Source: Rikenellaceae bacterium (GTDB lineage: Bacteria > Bacteroidota > Bacteroidia > Bacteroidales > Rikenellaceae). From it: a stretch of 64,000 bases of DNA. The stretch lies in NCBI GenBank assembly GCA_015059685.1, contig SUZW01000001.1, forward strand, positions 103,603 through 167,602, given 5' to 3'. This document shows, in pieces, positions 3,322 through 53,884 of the stretch (position 1 is the stretch's first letter; the number at the start of each line of letters is the position of its first letter). The translations under genes and the position numbers were made by a program. A model generated the notes under the pieces. The model searched no databases and had not been told where the DNA came from. It was given only the letters and a program-made list of their open reading frames with translations.

Positions 3322-5967
3322 CTACTCTTTCCACTCGTCAGGCATTGTGGCGTAGTCGGTCAAGCCTGTGCAGCCCTTGAAACAAGCTGCGTGAGCACTC
3401 TTTGAGCTTGGTACACGAGGGAAATCTTCACCCTGTACTCGCTCGTAGAGGTGAACCTTCTCCTCGCCAATAACGGTGTAAGGGCTCTCGCCTGTCAATG
3501 ACTTGCAGCCCTCGAAGCAACCGTTTATAGAGCTAATACGGCACACCGTGTCGAACAATCCCGCAGGAAGGCTCGTCAATGCCGAACAACCCTTGAAGCA
3601 ATTTGCAAAGGTTACGCTTGTGGTCGTTGTGCCGATAGCAGAGAATAGCTTTTCGGGCAAGGTCTCGAGTGCGGAACAGCCCAAGAATGCCTCCTCGAAG
3701 GTCTGAATTTTAGGGTTGCCTGCAAACAACTTCTCCGGAACGGCTTTGAGCGCAGTGCATCCCGAGAACATCCTATTTACATAAGCGAGGTTTGCGCACG
3801 AAGCCAAAAGATTTTCAGGCACGCTCTCCAATGCAGTACAACCGGTAAATGTGCCGGCAAAGTGTGTGGTTGCGGTGTTGTGTGCGAACAACTCCGCAGG
3901 GAGTGATTTCAACGATGTGCAACCCTCGAAGGTCTGCGTAAAGCGCAACTTCGCTGCACCCAGCGGCTTGAACAAATCGGCAGGGATACTCTCCAACTTC
4001 GGACAGAACGCAAAGAGTTGTGTCATCTTTGTAATTGTTGTTACCTCGGGGAAGATAGAGCCTTCAACGCTCTTCAACTCGGGACAACCATAGAAAGCAC
4101 CCTCGAAAGATGTTGAGTCGGCCTCTGTGCAGGTAACGAACAGACCCGCAGGGATACTCTCGATGCCCGAGCCAACAAAAAGACAATCCATACCGTCGGA
4201 TGCAAGTTCCGTAACATGATCGAAGAGGGTAGCAGGCACGGTTTTGAGGTTTTTGCACTCCGAGAAGAGGTAGGAGTAGTTCGCCAAGTCGTAATCTCGT
4301 ACCTCGTCGAACAGCTCCACAGGAACGCTCTCCAAAGCGGTGTTGGCAAACATATACTCAAACTCGTAAGCTGCCTTCATACCTGCCAACAAGCCGGCAG
4401 GAATGGTGCGCAACGAGGTGCAGTCGGTAAAGCAATAAGGGAACGACTTTGCTGCGGTCAAGCCCTCAAAAACGCCCGCCTCGATATCGGTAAGCGAGGT
4501 GCAGGTGTGGAAGACAGAGCCGACGGTCTTAACATTCGATAAACCTTTGAAGATGCCCTTTTTGATGCTCTGAACACCAGTGAGGCTGAAAAGATACTCC
4601 AAGTTGGTTACATTGGTACAGTTCTCGAACATCGCCACAGGTATCTCGGTAAGCGATACACAGCCCGAGAACATATACTTAATGTTGGTTGCCGAGGTGG
4701 CAGCCTTCATAAAGTTTGCAGGGATAGTCTTGAAGTTTGTACAAGCGAAGAATAGACCTTCGTAGTTTGTAGCTGCGCTGTTCTCGGCAAAAATCTTCTC
4801 CGGAACGGTGGTGATAGCGGTAGTTCCGAAGATATATTCAAACCTTGTGATGTTCGGACAGTTGCTAAACAACTTCTCAGGTACAGAGCGAAGCTTTCCA
4901 TTCGAGATAGCGTTGGAATTTTCGAGGTTGGCAGGGTAGCTGTTAAGGTAGTTGCCCGAGTTTATCTTCAACGCCTCGTTGGTAATCTTATAGTCTGTTC
5001 CCGTACCGTAGAAAGCAAAGTACATCTCCTCTGCCAACGGATTGTTGGCAAAGAGGTTTTCGGGAATTTCGCTGATAGAGGCGGTGTAGCGGAAGCAGTT
5101 CGAGAACTTCTTGGCCTCCTTGGCGTGCTGGAACAACCCCTCGGGGATAGACTTTAGCTTCTCGCAACCGAGGAATGCCGCCACAAACGAGCCTACATCT
5201 TCGAAGGAGCCTGCAACATCGGCAGGGATAGACTCCAGGTTGATGCAGCCCTTACACATATTGGCTGCATTCTTGTAGCCCATCTTGCCCCACGAGTGGA
5301 TGCGCTTCAGCTCGGGGCAGATACTATCTTCGTAGGCAAACTCGAGGTTGTGGATATCCTCGCCCGAGATGACAATGGTGTACAAACCCGGCTCGGCATA
5401 CTCCTTATATACTCGCTGACTCTCGTAGGTTGCAGGTTCACTGCCATCGCCCCAATCTACGGTCATCTTGCCACCATTTTGGTAGGTCAAGATTGGTGCA
5501 GCAACAACCTTTTGATTTGCCTCGGTGGTCTCAACCTCGTAGATAAGCTCCTCGGTGTCGGTACCAATCTGCAACACATTAATCGAGGCCTCGGCAACAT
5601 TCTCCTCTGTGCCTACTTTTACGGTTATCGACCCCTTGCGCTCGAGTTTGTCGATGCTCTCGCTGAAGGTTACAACCAAGTTGTTGTTGGAACGCTCGGC
5701 CGAAAACCACTCCTCGCCCGAGGTGGTAATCTCCCACTCCCAGTCGGGATTGACATCTACGACAACGCTCTCCACGGCACCATCGTAGTCCGCAACAACA
5801 TAGTTGCTGCCAAATTTGATATAGGCCGGCTCGGTTGGGGTGGTTGGATTAGAGGGTTCCTCTGTGTTCCCCCCCCCACCATTTGGCTCCTCTGTACCAC
5901 TGTCAGGCGTGCACGATACGGCAAACGCAACAAATAGTACTACATAGAGTAAATTCTTGATTTTCAT
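3322..5967 (-). CDS. Surface lipoprotein with BACON-like N-terminal domain and BspA/DUF285-type repeats (..GCTALESVPENLF..)
   Basis: 881-aa ORF, signal peptide/lipobox LLYVVLFVAFAVSC, many ~24-aa repeats 'F.GC..L..IP..LF'. Confidence 0.85.
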   Translation of the reverse strand: MKIKNLLYVVLFVAFAVSCTPDSGTEEPNGGGGNTEEPSNPTTPTEPAYIKFGSNYVVADYDGAVESVVVDVNPDWEWEITTSGEEWFSAERSNNNLVVTFSESIDKLERKGSITVKVGTEENVAEASINVLQIGTDTEELIYEVETTEANQKVVAAPILTYQNGGKMTVDWGDGSEPATYESQRVYKEYAEPGLYTIVISGEDIHNLEFAYEDSICPELKRIHSWGKMGYKNAANMCKGCINLESIPADVAGSFEDVGSFVAAFLGCEKLKSIPEGLFQHAKEAKKFSNCFRYTASISEIPENLFANNPLAEEMYFAFYGTGTDYKITNEALKINSGNYLNSYPANLENSNAISNGKLRSVPEKLFSNCPNITRFEYIFGTTAITTVPEKIFAENSAATNYEGLFFACTNFKTIPANFMKAATSATNIKYMFSGCVSLTEIPVAMFENCTNVTNLEYLFSLTGVQSIKKGIFKGLSNVKTVGSVFHTCTSLTDIEAGVFEGLTAAKSFPYCFTDCTSLRTIPAGLLAGMKAAYEFEYMFANTALESVPVELFDEVRDYDLANYSYLFSECKNLKTVPATLFDHVTELASDGMDCLFVGSGIESIPAGLFVTCTEADSTSFEGAFYGCPELKSVEGSIFPEVTTITKMTQLFAFCPKLESIPADLFKPLGAAKLRFTQTFEGCTSLKSLPAELFAHNTATTHFAGTFTGCTALESVPENLLASCANLAYVNRMFSGCTALKAVPEKLFAGNPKIQTFEEAFLGCSALETLPEKLFSAIGTTTTSVTFANCFKGCSALTSLPAGLFDTVCRISSINGCFEGCKSLTGESPYTVIGEEKVHLYERVQGEDFPRVPSSKSAHAACFKGCTGLTDYATMPDEWKE
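5869..5877 (-). repeat. G9 homopolymer (C9 on + strand) in the coding region just after the lipobox
   Basis: ggttcc ccccccc acc on the + strand; encodes NGGGGN. Confidence 0.9.
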
Positions 5968-49352: not shown

Positions 49353-49474
49353 AAAATCGTAAATGATTGAGGGAACTTTGTGCCAAGCAAAAAAATCGCC
49401 CCGCAGCATACTTGGCGTATGTGAGGAGCGATTTATTGAAGATTGGTGCGAAATTCACCAATCAGAACGATTTT
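49353..49474. repeat. Dispersed palindromic intergenic repeat, copy D
   Basis: aaaatcgtaaatgattgagggaactttgtgcc...ccgcagcatacttggcgtatgtgagga...ggtgcgaaattcaccaatcagaacgatttt. Confidence 0.8.
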
Positions 49475-50588
49475 AGAACGCTAAAAATGCGTTCCAATCA
49501 TTACTGCTCTCCGCTGTTACCTCTACCGTGTCGGGGAGGTTTCCGAAGAAGTCGAAGCCTGTCCACTGCTCCACCTGATCGACCGTTACGGCGTAGTTGG
49601 TGTAGGCGTCGGAGTAGGCCTTGTTTTCAAACCAAAAACCGACTGTCGATGCCGATGTTACCGTGCCACTGCTGTTGGTCTTCACCTTCAACGCTACTTT
49701 GTAGAAGTAGTTTGGTATCGGCACATCCTTGGTGTCGTCGGCTGCCTGAATGTAGGATACAGACTTTGTCTCGCCCACCTTCGAGAACGCCACACCCGTT
49801 ACGATGTAGATTGTCTCGCCACTCTTTGCCTCGCTCTGCAATGCGTCTTCGAGGTTGCTCCACACTCCGCTGTTGAAGCTGTTTTGCACCTGCGGTACCG
49901 AGTTGGTAACGTAGAAGGTCTGCTTCTGCATCTCCTCGTTTCCGTTGCGCGAGGCGTTTGGAATAAGGTGTCCGCGTGAGTATGTGTCGCCCTCGTAGGA
50001 GTGGTCGCAGAGGTTTACCTGCTCACTTTCGTCGATAAGTGGGTTGTAGTACCACTTCGACGGGCGTGACAACGAACCCATGTGGCTCGACGAGAGCGGA
50101 TAAGCCACCCACATCGAGGTATAGGTTGAGTTGTCGTAGTAGGCGGTGTAGTTGCGCACACCACTCGCATTGACCTTCAACTCCACCGCATTAGGATAGA
50201 GCCCATTGGTGTCCTCGGCCGGCAATTCGAGCCAACTCTCGGTTGGCATCACCTTTGGCGTTGTCAGCGTTGTCGAAGCCGATGTTACAGCCGTGCCGTT
50301 TGTGGCGGTGCAAGAGGCATATACGGTATATGCCGTGTCGTACTCCAACTCCACATTGCTCACTTGGGCGTATGTCTGCGTTGTGCCTACATTGCAGGTC
50401 GCAGATGTTGTGTGCGAGGAGCTTGTGAAGTGGAAAGTTACATCGCCGTTAGAGATATATTCGGGACTCTCCACCATGCAACCCGCCCACGCCAAAGTGC
50501 CGTTAAGCGAAGCCGATATGTTAGTTAATCCCGGGGTAGGGTCCGTGGCAGGAGGGGTTACTTCCCCTCCTGTTCCACTACCCGAAGA
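49473..50588 (-). CDS. DNA/RNA non-specific endonuclease domain with N-terminal fibronectin/Ig-like domain; no own ATG/signal peptide, preceded in frame by a TGA
   Basis: ..YSRGHLIPNASRNGNEEMQKQTFYVTNSVPQ..VWSNLEDALQ; frame open back to TGA at 50589-50591. Track ORF starts at TTG 50495. Confidence 0.8.
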   Translation of the reverse strand, partial: SSGSGTGGEVTPPATDPTPGLTNISASLNGTLAWAGCMVESPEYISNGDVTFHFTSSSHTTSATCNVGTTQTYAQVSNVELEYDTAYTVYASCTATNGTAVTSASTTLTTPKVMPTESWLELPAEDTNGLYPNAVELKVNASGVRNYTAYYDNSTYTSMWVAYPLSSSHMGSLSRPSKWYYNPLIDESEQVNLCDHSYEGDTYSRGHLIPNASRNGNEEMQKQTFYVTNSVPQVQNSFNSGVWSNLEDALQSEAKSGETIYIVTGVAFSKVGETKSVSYIQAADDTKDVPIPNYFYKVALKVKTNSSGTVTSASTVGFWFENKAYSDAYTNYAVTVDQVEQWTGFDFFGNLPDTVEVTAESSNDWNAFLAF

Positions 50589-53471
50589 TCAGTTAAGTTT
50601 ATAGAGCTGAATTGCCTGCTGTCCTGAATATGAACTACTCTTGTAGTAGCGGAAACGAACCTGATTTGAAGCAGAGTTGTATCGCAAATATGCACCGCCA
50701 GTACCCTTAATTGTTATATCGTCTGCACTTGCAAATGCAATTGTGTTGTTAAGTGCTGTAGCACTCTCATCGAGTTCATTTGAGTCTGTGCTTCTTCCGA
50801 TATATTTGCCGCTTGCCGATTTGATAGAGTAGTTTGCATCACCGCTCTTGGCAATGGTAAATGCAATAGCTTTCATTGCATCGGTTGCCTCAATCTGATT
50901 GTTGCTAATTGTAACGGTCTTTGTGTTACCGACAGCGTCGAGAGTCGCAAGACTACCATCAAATGCCACCTTGCCGGTCTCGTAAACGATAAGGTATGTA
51001 CCACTCCAATCACTTGGTGTCGAAGTAACCTTAACGAAGTGTGTGCCTCCCTGCTCTGGCTCATCGCCACCACCGGTGTTGCCGGCAGCCTGCGAAATGG
51101 TTACGGTCTGGCTCTCTGCACCCTCGTATGAGAGTGTTACAGTTGCCTCACGCGCTGCACCTGTGTTCTCGTCAACATAGAAAGTTACATCTGTGCTGCT
51201 AACCTCAAAGCCATGAACCCAAGTCTGATTAGCCGAAGCGGTTACGCTCTGACCAACAACAGGGTTTGTAATGGTATAAGTGATAGTTGGAACATCACCC
51301 GCAGCTGCAACATTAATAGTAGTAGCCGAAGTTACAGCCAATACCGGAGCAGGGGTCTCTGGTGTCTCGCCACCCTCGCTGCTACCGCCATAAGTTACGG
51401 TAAGAGCATCAAGGTACACCTTAGCCGAAAGTTTCGCAATTACTACACTTTCAACTGCAGTACTATATTCAATAGTTACCTTATCGCTACTTACAGTAAC
51501 TGTTGCTCCGCTTGGAGTGCCAATTGAAGAGTTCAATGCATTTGCATAAGAGCTGCTATTTGCATCAAATACAATCTTTGTGATATTGCTTGGTGCAGTA
51601 ACTGTGATTGAAGAACCAGAGTATAAACGAACTGGATTCGAATAATTTGCTACATTTGATGAAGCACTTGCCTTGTTGTTTACGAATGTAATACCATCAT
51701 TTGACCAAGTCTGCTGGTTGTTATCCTGGCTAAGACGCTGTGCGGTGCTTGCAAACGATATTGTTCCTTCTCCGGACACTACCTCGCCAGCAGCCTGCTT
51801 CTTGTTCTGCGTAATAGTGAATGTAGTAGTAACATTCTCATAGTCTGCCTTTGTAGCAGTTACATTTACAGTTGCTGTACGCTCCTCAGTCTCGCTCTCG
51901 TTAACAGTTGCAGAGAAGGTAATCTTGCCATCAGCATAAGCGAGGTCCGACACCCAAGTATCATCGGTAGTAGCAGTGATTGCCCAACCGTCGCTATTGG
52001 TTGTAGTAACAGCAACCTCGCCACTTGTTGCATCGTGTGCGATAACTGCATTAGCAACCGAAAGGGTGATTGCAGGATCCTTTACAACATACTCGCCAAC
52101 AAGCTTGTAGATGCAGATATCCTGCATACCACTGCTGTAGCAAGAGAAACGAGGATTACTGTTGTTGTATTTCACAATGTTTCGAGTGTTTGAACCCTGT
52201 GCAGTAACAGTTGCAACACCATTCTCGCCAATAGTGATAGCAAACGAAGCGTTCGCATCTATAGTTGTCTGTGACTTCAAGTTGTTGGAACTCGAGCTTG
52301 CTGCATAGAGATATTTGTTATCCGAAGTCTGGAATGCGAATGTACCCTCAACCGAACCCTCTACCAGGGTGAGAACCTCTACGGTAGAATCAATCTCGAT
52401 AGTGCTGTTTTCGTTCTTGGTGATAGCAACAGCATCGCGGTAGTCGCCATTCTGCTTACCCATAGCCACATTGTAGCCCGCTGCAGCAATAACAACCTTA
52501 TCACCAACGGCCAAGCCTGTGATGTTAGGAACGAGGTTGTAGGCGTTGTCCACCCACTCGATAGTCTCAATCTCCTCTACATTATTCGTGTCGAGCGATA
52601 CATTCAAAGTAGTAACCTTACCCCTTGCCAAGTCGATATCTTGCGACAAAGTAATCTCCTTTGTGATTGTATAGCCCTCGGTCTGAGCATTGAAAGTGAG
52701 TTTTGAACCCGAAGCCAAAGTCTGTGGATAAACAATAATATAGGTTGCGTTTGCATTGTCCATCTCATACTGAGTAGCCTCGGTGTAAATTGCGGTTACG
52801 GTATTAGATTCTCCATAATACAAGCCCTCTTCCTCGTTGAGTTTCTGATTTACGACATCAAGATACACACGACCGGTAAGGTTTGACGCTGCAGTCATAG
52901 CAAGCGTTTTCACATGCTGACCAGCCAAAGTAGAGGTATTATCCTTCAATACAACCTTTACAATTGCACCCAAGCGAGCAAACTCCAAATCCGAGAGTTG
53001 GTTACCCTCTGCATCGAGTGTTACAGGCTTTGCAATCATAATATCAGCCTTACCATCAAACGAAGTTGCAGTAGGAGCCTGCTGAGTAGGTATATCTACC
53101 TTTGCTCCCAAAGCTGCGATACCATTCGTTGTGTATGGATAGTAAACATAGAGAGTGTTAGACAAAGCGGTAGTACCTGTAAAGGTTGTTATAGTCGCAC
53201 GCTCTGTTGCATCATTAGTCAAATAATAGTTGTCTGCATCTTTCTCTTGTGCAGTATAAACACCAATCATATCGCCTACGCTCCAATATGGAGTTGTTCC
53301 CTCCAACTCGGTACGATTTTCAGATACAACAGTTGGTTTGTCTGCTGTAAGGGTTACCTTTACGAGGTTTGTGTCACCATTAACGGTTGTGTCGTTAAAG
53401 TTGTTCTCGCACGATACGAGAGCAGTTGCTGCAACTGCCCAAAGCATCATTTTTGTAAAAATCTTCTTCAT
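50589..53471 (-). CDS. Large secreted lipoprotein, fimbrillin-like N-terminus and BACON repeats
   Basis: MKKIFTKMMLWAVAATALVSCENNFND..; BACON-like segment TTNSDGWAITATTDDTWVSDLAYADGKITFSATVN; ends ..SGQQAIQLYKLN*. Confidence 0.85.
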   Translation of the reverse strand: MKKIFTKMMLWAVAATALVSCENNFNDTTVNGDTNLVKVTLTADKPTVVSENRTELEGTTPYWSVGDMIGVYTAQEKDADNYYLTNDATERATITTFTGTTALSNTLYVYYPYTTNGIAALGAKVDIPTQQAPTATSFDGKADIMIAKPVTLDAEGNQLSDLEFARLGAIVKVVLKDNTSTLAGQHVKTLAMTAASNLTGRVYLDVVNQKLNEEEGLYYGESNTVTAIYTEATQYEMDNANATYIIVYPQTLASGSKLTFNAQTEGYTITKEITLSQDIDLARGKVTTLNVSLDTNNVEEIETIEWVDNAYNLVPNITGLAVGDKVVIAAAGYNVAMGKQNGDYRDAVAITKNENSTIEIDSTVEVLTLVEGSVEGTFAFQTSDNKYLYAASSSSNNLKSQTTIDANASFAITIGENGVATVTAQGSNTRNIVKYNNSNPRFSCYSSGMQDICIYKLVGEYVVKDPAITLSVANAVIAHDATSGEVAVTTTNSDGWAITATTDDTWVSDLAYADGKITFSATVNESETEERTATVNVTATKADYENVTTTFTITQNKKQAAGEVVSGEGTISFASTAQRLSQDNNQQTWSNDGITFVNNKASASSNVANYSNPVRLYSGSSITVTAPSNITKIVFDANSSSYANALNSSIGTPSGATVTVSSDKVTIEYSTAVESVVIAKLSAKVYLDALTVTYGGSSEGGETPETPAPVLAVTSATTINVAAAGDVPTITYTITNPVVGQSVTASANQTWVHGFEVSSTDVTFYVDENTGAAREATVTLSYEGAESQTVTISQAAGNTGGGDEPEQGGTHFVKVTSTPSDWSGTYLIVYETGKVAFDGSLATLDAVGNTKTVTISNNQIEATDAMKAIAFTIAKSGDANYSIKSASGKYIGRSTDSNELDESATALNNTIAFASADDITIKGTGGAYLRYNSASNQVRFRYYKSSSYSGQQAIQLYKLN

Positions 53472-53484
53472 AGCATTGCAGTTT

Positions 53485-53661
53485 TTAGAGTTCATAAGAA
53501 TTACCGTTTTCAATAGCTCCCGCAGCACCCTCATTTCCGTATGTCAAATCGGGGTTCTGCGACACAAAGAATCCTGCCTCGGCTTTCACGAAGCAGACCT
53601 CGACAGTAGGTGCGGCATAGCCCCCTTCCGCAAGGTTTTTCATAAGGTCTAATTTGTTCAT
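53485..53661 (-). CDS. Short 58-aa peptide MNKLDLMKNLAEGGYAAPTVEVCFVKAEAGFFVSQNPDLTYGNEGAAGAIENGNSYEL
   Basis: Complete ATG-to-TAA frame directly upstream of, and possibly overlapping, the start of the BACON protein; motif shared with 3121-3273. Confidence 0.72.
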   Translation of the reverse strand: MNKLDLMKNLAEGGYAAPTVEVCFVKAEAGFFVSQNPDLTYGNEGAAGAIENGNSYEL

Positions 53662-53884
53662 AATGAGTTTGTTAAGTATTAAATAAATAAAAAAATCGAA
53701 TTCTTCTCACTAACCAAGGCGCAAAGGTACGCAAAAAATGCTGAAAAACAGCACATTCCATAGCTTTTTTTGAAACTTTTTTTGCTCTTTTTCAGGAAGT
53801 TGCCCCACAAGGGCTATGAGAGGGTGTTTTTTGTTGAGAGCAGAGAGCAGAAGCGCAAAATGCCGAATTGACAATTTGTAATTC

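Follow-up and report, generated by a model that had tools for sequence, protein, structure and literature searches.

The described systems closest to the locus analyzed here are the Linear Polyphosphorylated Peptides (LPPs), products of the lpp system of Paenibacillus alginolyticus (PMC13381572, Nat Commun 2026). This system includes the RRE LppB, the HprK-like LppK, the SpI-like LppS (with the residues S29, H68 and D93), the NTP transferase LppN and the exporter LppD; the leader of LppA conforms to the consensus YxxPxVLxHQxIxFETxxS and is cut after the Thr, and the Ser is phosphorylated (PMC13381572). The YxxP element is the RRE-binding motif of LPP leaders and of most lasso peptide leaders (PMC13381572, PMC12710340), and in LppB the residues N33 and D70 hold the leader Pro and Tyr (PMC13381572). 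The LPPs are said to be restricted to Bacillota, and their biological role is unknown (PMC13381572).

Here, we consider a short minus-strand gene in a 64,000-nucleotide stretch (hereinafter the window) of contig SUZW01000001.1 from a fragmented, 1.8-Mb genome assembly of a Rikenellaceae bacterium (GCA_015059685.1), an Alistipes-type gut organism. The features of this locus are listed in Table 1. We propose that the encoded peptide is probably one of about a dozen scattered LPP-like RiPP precursors that would undergo maturation in trans and be expressed together with lipoproteins of the fimbrillin/BACON type, a reading that rests on the co-occurrence with processing enzymes, the gene clusters found in other families, the YxxPx[VIL] leader and the pairing with lipoproteins. 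The initial annotation had identified the gene pair, with an open reading frame and a translation identical to ours (58 amino acids, with another in-frame ATG at 53643 as an alternative start), but had seen neither the RiPP-type leader nor the dedicated processing and export machinery encoded elsewhere in the genome.

Alignment of about 52 codons of the window peptide with four orthologues from other genomes of the genus (L005-L008) yielded dN values of 0.25-0.37 and dS values ranging from 0.76 to saturation, and the differences concentrate at third codon positions (for example, 8/11/24 by codon position in the comparison with L005). This third-position-biased change, together with dN well below dS among the five orthologues, indicates that the window peptide is a real protein under selection. 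Single-sequence search of 100 further genomes of the genus retrieved orthologues with 56-76% identity.

The peptide belongs to a family with the signature YxxPx[VIL]E...ExGFxxS followed by an acidic tail, which is present in 11-12 copies in the genome of the window (12 profile matches at E <= 1) and in up to 22 copies in its relatives. A single-sequence search of the window's genome recovered two more copies in addition to the 3273-3121 peptide; the kinship of the latter with the 53661-53485 peptide, originally proposed from an alignment, is substantiated by E values of 9.7e-4 for a single sequence and 2.3e-15 for the profile. In an alignment of 48 members, no substitutions occur at Tyr15, Pro18 or Glu28, and Gly30 (47/48), Ser34 (46/48) and Phe31 (40/48) are nearly invariant, with hydrophobic residues alternating between the conserved positions in a beta-strand-like pattern. 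All 48 members carry a net negative composition in their final 20 residues, with a mean excess of 4.8 acidic residues; the tail is variable, and the C-terminal residue is mostly Trp, Leu, Phe or Tyr. By analogy with LppA, the Ser of the ExGFxxS motif is a candidate phosphate acceptor. Neither the peptide nor any of the 48 members produced a significant match in Pfam or NCBIfam; the only NCBIfam signal, a weak one (E = 0.068), links one of the 48 members to the paeninodin lasso family. A search of open-licence papers found no description of a peptide/fimbrillin pairing or of an Alistipes RiPP family. Thus, the existence of a conserved, apparently unnamed family beside a downstream surface protein, as suggested initially, is borne out.

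Table 1. Features of the peptide locus and of related loci (window coordinates unless a contig locus is given)
Feature	Position	Strand	Basis or comment
Candidate LPP-like RiPP precursor, peptide gene	53485..53661	(-)	58 aa + TAA; translation, third-position-biased divergence, family profile
YAAPTV leader motif, residues 15-20 (YxxPx[VIL]), predicted RRE-binding	53602..53619	(-)	Y and P invariant in 48/48 members
ExGFxxS motif, residues 28-34, predicted peptidase/kinase region	53560..53580	(-)	conservation; role by analogy with FET|xxS of LppA
Acidic variable C-terminal tail, predicted core or mature peptide	53488..53559	(-)	tail composition; putative core role
Overlapping ATG, incidental	53493..53495	(-)	not conserved among orthologues
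TACCTTTG, -7 box match	53722..53729	(-)	sequence; ~60 nt upstream of peptide ATG
Partner gene, 960-aa fimbrillin-like lipoprotein (MKKIFTKMMLWAVAATALVSC...), one BACON segment	50589..53471	(-)	conserved start; PF13004
In-frame continuation past TGA: Ser/Gly linker + DNA/RNA non-specific endonuclease domain	49473..50588	(-)	PF01223 E 4.4e-39; same frame
Second family member, 50 aa	3121..3273	(-)	15 nt upstream of fimbrillin-like lipoprotein (start 3105, runs off window)
Near-identical family copies (VLNSYSAP...), window's genome	L062:7021-7179, L063:6706-6864, L064:5576-5722, L065:6337-6483		

In at least 60 of the 80 non-redundant members, the peptide gene is directly followed by a lipoprotein gene, with a median gap of 17 nt; this count is based on a strict signal-peptide pattern, and L033, L037 and L045 look like additional cases that it missed. 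For most of the remaining members, a long gene ends 20-86 nt before the peptide gene. Of the four near-identical VLNSYSAP copies in the window's genome, three are preceded, at a distance of about 40 nt, by genes for related large lipoproteins (755-1398 amino acids) and the fourth is at a contig end. Since some members follow rather than precede surface genes, the peptide is positionally tied to such genes without being a leader in the strict sense. The window also contains a gene for an 881-aa lipoprotein with BspA-type LRR and PARCEL repeats (3322-5967, minus strand), which ends 49 nt before the 3273-3121 peptide gene, so that this peptide sits between two surface-protein genes.

The overlapping ATG at 53495, inside TATGAACTCTAA, does exist as initially noted, but it is incidental and not conserved: of the four orthologues from other genomes, L005 retains it, L006 and L007 have TACGAA in its place, and in L008 the ATG falls into another frame. 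In contrast, the MKK start of the lipoprotein at 53471, 13 nt past the TAA of the peptide gene, is kept in all five orthologues. Given that three of the five orthologues have no in-frame overlapping ATG, and that members also occur downstream of surface genes, including the three copies in this genome, coupled translation through this codon is not supported. The TACCTTTG sequence upstream of the peptide gene matches the Bacteroidetes -7 box consensus, TAnnTTTG. No clear -33 box accompanies this match; it was not recovered by a combined -33/-7 scan with one mismatch allowed, and a sigma-70 consensus scan was uninformative.

The BACON label given to the downstream protein holds for a single internal segment (51786-52085), which, when scanned alone, matched PF13004 at E = 1.7e-5 with a score of 25.1 bits against a cut-off of 25, whereas the whole protein has no match in Pfam. 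One of 10 homologous lipoprotein N-termini matched Mfa_like_1 (E = 2.3e-9); structure prediction for the N-terminus from two sequences reached a pLDDT of 37 and was not used. The partner genes are of the same general kind as the Mfa/Fim-type fimbrillin lipoproteins of Bacteroidales but differ from these in being paired with a peptide, an association for which we found no report in the literature searched. The C-terminal domains of the partner lipoproteins vary, with the BACON segment and the in-frame nuclease being the version found in the window. The nuclease continuation starts immediately past the TGA at 50591-50589 and has no evident start codon or signal peptide of its own. This combination of a fimbrillin/BACON-type lipoprotein, a TGA, a linker and an in-frame Endonuclease_NS-type domain was observed in three species: the window, L349:3322-4440 and L352:2538-3782, with the nuclease being 87% identical in G047 and 35% identical in G005. 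It could reflect stop-codon readthrough, a silent cassette or decay.

Genes for the candidate processing enzymes are present in the genome of the window but are dispersed, as are the precursors, rather than forming one cluster with them, and across the genus the enzymes are not adjacent to the peptides. An ABC transporter gene is located directly upstream of genes for an HprK-like kinase and an SpI-type peptidase (L274:5114-8107); the only PqqD gene maps to another contig (L084:7868-8137; PF05402, E = 9.7e-14) and an NTP_transf_5 gene (PF14907, E = 6.1e-43) to a third one. The kinase (profile E = 3.8e-75) retains an intact P-loop GESGTGKST and the DD motif, and shows weak NCBIfam matches to HprK_rel_A. 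The peptidase matches TIGR02228 at E = 4.9e-9, below the cut-off of that model, and keeps Ser47, His85 and Asp100; its family profile matches SEC11 structures. A structural model of an Alistipes PqqD orthologue (pLDDT 82.6) gave as its best matches 5v1u (E = 5.6e-4) and 6jx3, that is, the TbiB1 and TfuB1 RREs solved with bound lasso leaders. The Alistipes PqqD proteins share a conserved Asn and a conserved Asp that seem to correspond in position to N33 and D70 of LppB, with TfuB1 as the aligned reference, and the LppB structure entry 9x8z matched profile A5 at E = 5.2e-5. Database records assign the close relatives of this PqqD gene to Alistipes sp. or to metagenome bins of Rikenellaceae, most of them from ruminants. 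In several species, the lone PqqD gene keeps its neighbours (L084:7868-11551, L289, L290 and L292), namely genes for a small Cys/His-rich protein, a large outer-membrane-receptor-like protein and a small heavy-metal-associated-like protein.

A survey of four components in 81 genomes of the genus, with profile A3 built partly from system-bearing genomes, detected the peptides in 69, PqqD in 67, and SpI and HprK in 66 each. All four are absent from 11 genomes, several of which are 97-99% complete and which may represent one clade, and the exceptions to the co-occurrence are mostly incomplete assemblies. With the 81 genomes taken as independent, the Fisher test gave p = 3.5e-10 for peptide/PqqD and p = 1.3e-9 for both peptide/SpI and peptide/HprK. 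The genomes are in fact not independent; it is the clusters identified in several other Bacteroidales families that provide independent support. Family members were found beside processing enzymes at L057 and L074; at the latter locus (G119), 38 nt separate the member from a downstream operon encoding an HprK-like kinase, a signal-peptidase-like protease, PqqD, NTP_transf_5 and an ABC exporter, with no lipoprotein gene. In G358 (L094), a peptide and a lipoprotein are embedded among the same five enzyme and exporter genes along with polysaccharide-export genes, and in G330 (L125) a peptide and a lipoprotein precede an HprK-SpI-PqqD-NTP_transf_5-ABC operon.

NTP_transf_5 alone turned out to be too broad a marker, also occurring in lasso-type and polysaccharide loci, and SpI-containing clusters were therefore used for the survey of the order. 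Among 295 genomes of the order, 17 contain an SpI-type gene beside NTP_transf_5, 14 contain the peptides and six contain both (Fisher p = 3e-5), the NTP_transf_5 loci having been collected in two rounds, of which the first was chosen partly for the presence of peptides and which together cover nearly all NTP_transf_5 matches. Two further types of loci came to light. In G357, five short peptides with an EYQxPEL leader and Ser/Cys/Gly-rich tails are encoded in tandem (L144:9651-10764, minus strand) next to a region with ABC, NTP_transf_5, SpI-like, HprK and PqqD genes, and possibly constitute another RiPP precursor array in Bacteroidales. Short peptides with a WxxPx[LIV] leader are encoded near HprK and PqqD, often with an extra large gene, at L133, L136, L137, L145, L148, L152, L178, L179, L183, L194 and L212; these Bacteroidales loci have the appearance of gene clusters for lasso peptides of the paeninodin type.

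The system of the window resembles the LPP system in combining the same five protein types (a discrete RRE, an HprK-like kinase, an archaeal-type SpI peptidase, an NTP transferase and an MsbA-like exporter) with a precursor that has a conserved YxxPxV leader, a conserved Ser near the leader end and a variable C-terminus, and in its links to polysaccharide loci (here, at L093 and L094). It differs from that system in that the host belongs to Bacteroidota and in that the numerous precursors of Alistipes-type genomes (up to 22) are scattered, separate from the enzyme genes and found in pairs with surface lipoproteins. When the LPP consensus is compared with the 48 members, the YxxPx[VIL] element, the near-invariant Ser and a Glu preceding the predicted cleavage site are present, whereas LxHQ and FET are absent, ExGF taking the place of FET, and the Ser is at position 20 counted from the Tyr as opposed to 19 in the LPP consensus. 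A single gene cluster, found in G119, G358 and G330 but not in the window's genome, is a trait of the described LPP examples rather than of the chemistry. Because the leader consensus is matched in part and the single-cluster organization is missing from this genome, we do not file the system as an LPP; the claim supported, by analogy, is that it would work like an LPP system.

An alternative interpretation would make the peptide gene a cis-acting leader cistron, the translation of which only sets the translation or transcription of the lipoprotein gene, by coupling or attenuation, with its sequence mattering little in trans. The closeness of the lipoprotein start (median gap of 17 nt), the location of the peptide gene as the first cistron after the TACCTTTG box in the window and the overlapping ATG in the window and L005 fit such a role. 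Nevertheless, we deem it distinctly unlikely, given the strong constraint on the amino acid sequence, with Tyr, Pro and Glu invariant and Gly and Ser nearly so, the variability of the overlapping ATG, and the members that reside downstream of surface genes (the three copies in this genome included) or beside processing enzymes (L057/L074); moreover, the co-occurrence with PqqD, SpI and HprK would be left unexplained.

The tight pairing with lipoproteins and the acidic tail with its mostly aromatic or hydrophobic end are also compatible with an unmodified small partner of the lipoprotein, such as a chaperone or anti-aggregation factor, in which case the co-occurrence with PqqD, HprK and SpI would reflect shared ancestry only, and the co-occurrence statistics do indeed take genomes as independent of phylogeny. 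We regard this as unlikely because no signal peptide is apparent on the peptide, whereas its partner carries a lipoprotein signal, because members cluster directly with RiPP-type enzymes in several other families, and because the leader motif matches a characterized RRE ligand motif. Among RiPPs, the precursor of a true lasso peptide, that is, a macrolactam, deserves consideration: paeninodin-type systems share with the one described here a discrete PqqD/B1 RRE, an HprK kinase, an NTP transferase and a [Y/W]xxPx[L/V/I] leader, the PqqD protein resembles lasso B1 proteins, one of the 48 members weakly matches the paeninodin model, and W/YxxP peptides occur beside HprK and PqqD at other Bacteroidales loci. 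However, Tyr replaces Trp in the leader, the peptidase is of the SpI type, the penultimate Thr that is conserved in lasso leaders is missing, and inspection of the ABC-HprK-SpI operon and of the PqqD gene (L084) revealed no macrolactam synthetase (cyclase)/B2 candidate within or beside the operon or beside the PqqD gene; a lasso precursor thus seems highly improbable.

Under the LPP-like scheme that we prefer, the YxxPxV stretch of the leader would bind the single PqqD-type RRE as an added strand, the HprK-like kinase would phosphorylate the near-invariant Ser34 of ExGFxxS, the archaeal-type signal peptidase would cut near Glu28-Phe31 (ExGF), and the co-encoded MsbA-type ABC exporter would export the acidic tail, all by analogy with the characterized systems. 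Every precursor gene probably shares a transcript with the gene of its own surface lipoprotein, which in the window is of the fimbrillin/BACON type, and the cell surface is therefore the most likely place for the product to act, together with this lipoprotein; the link could be that of a ligand, a subunit or a decoration, or possibly only co-regulation. More tentatively, one central machine might mature many peptides, each acting with its own surface lipoprotein, rather than yield a free secreted natural product; the peptide would then possibly be a cognate ligand, subunit, decoration or maturation factor of the lipoprotein.

If this proposal is correct, machinery of the LPP kind would be widespread in gut Bacteroidota, with up to about 20 substrates per genome, and an abundant, unnamed family of small proteins of Alistipes-type bacteria would be explained. 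Scattered precursors of this type escape RiPP mining by gene cluster. The pairing with fimbrillin-type lipoproteins would offer a first testable clue to the function of such peptides.
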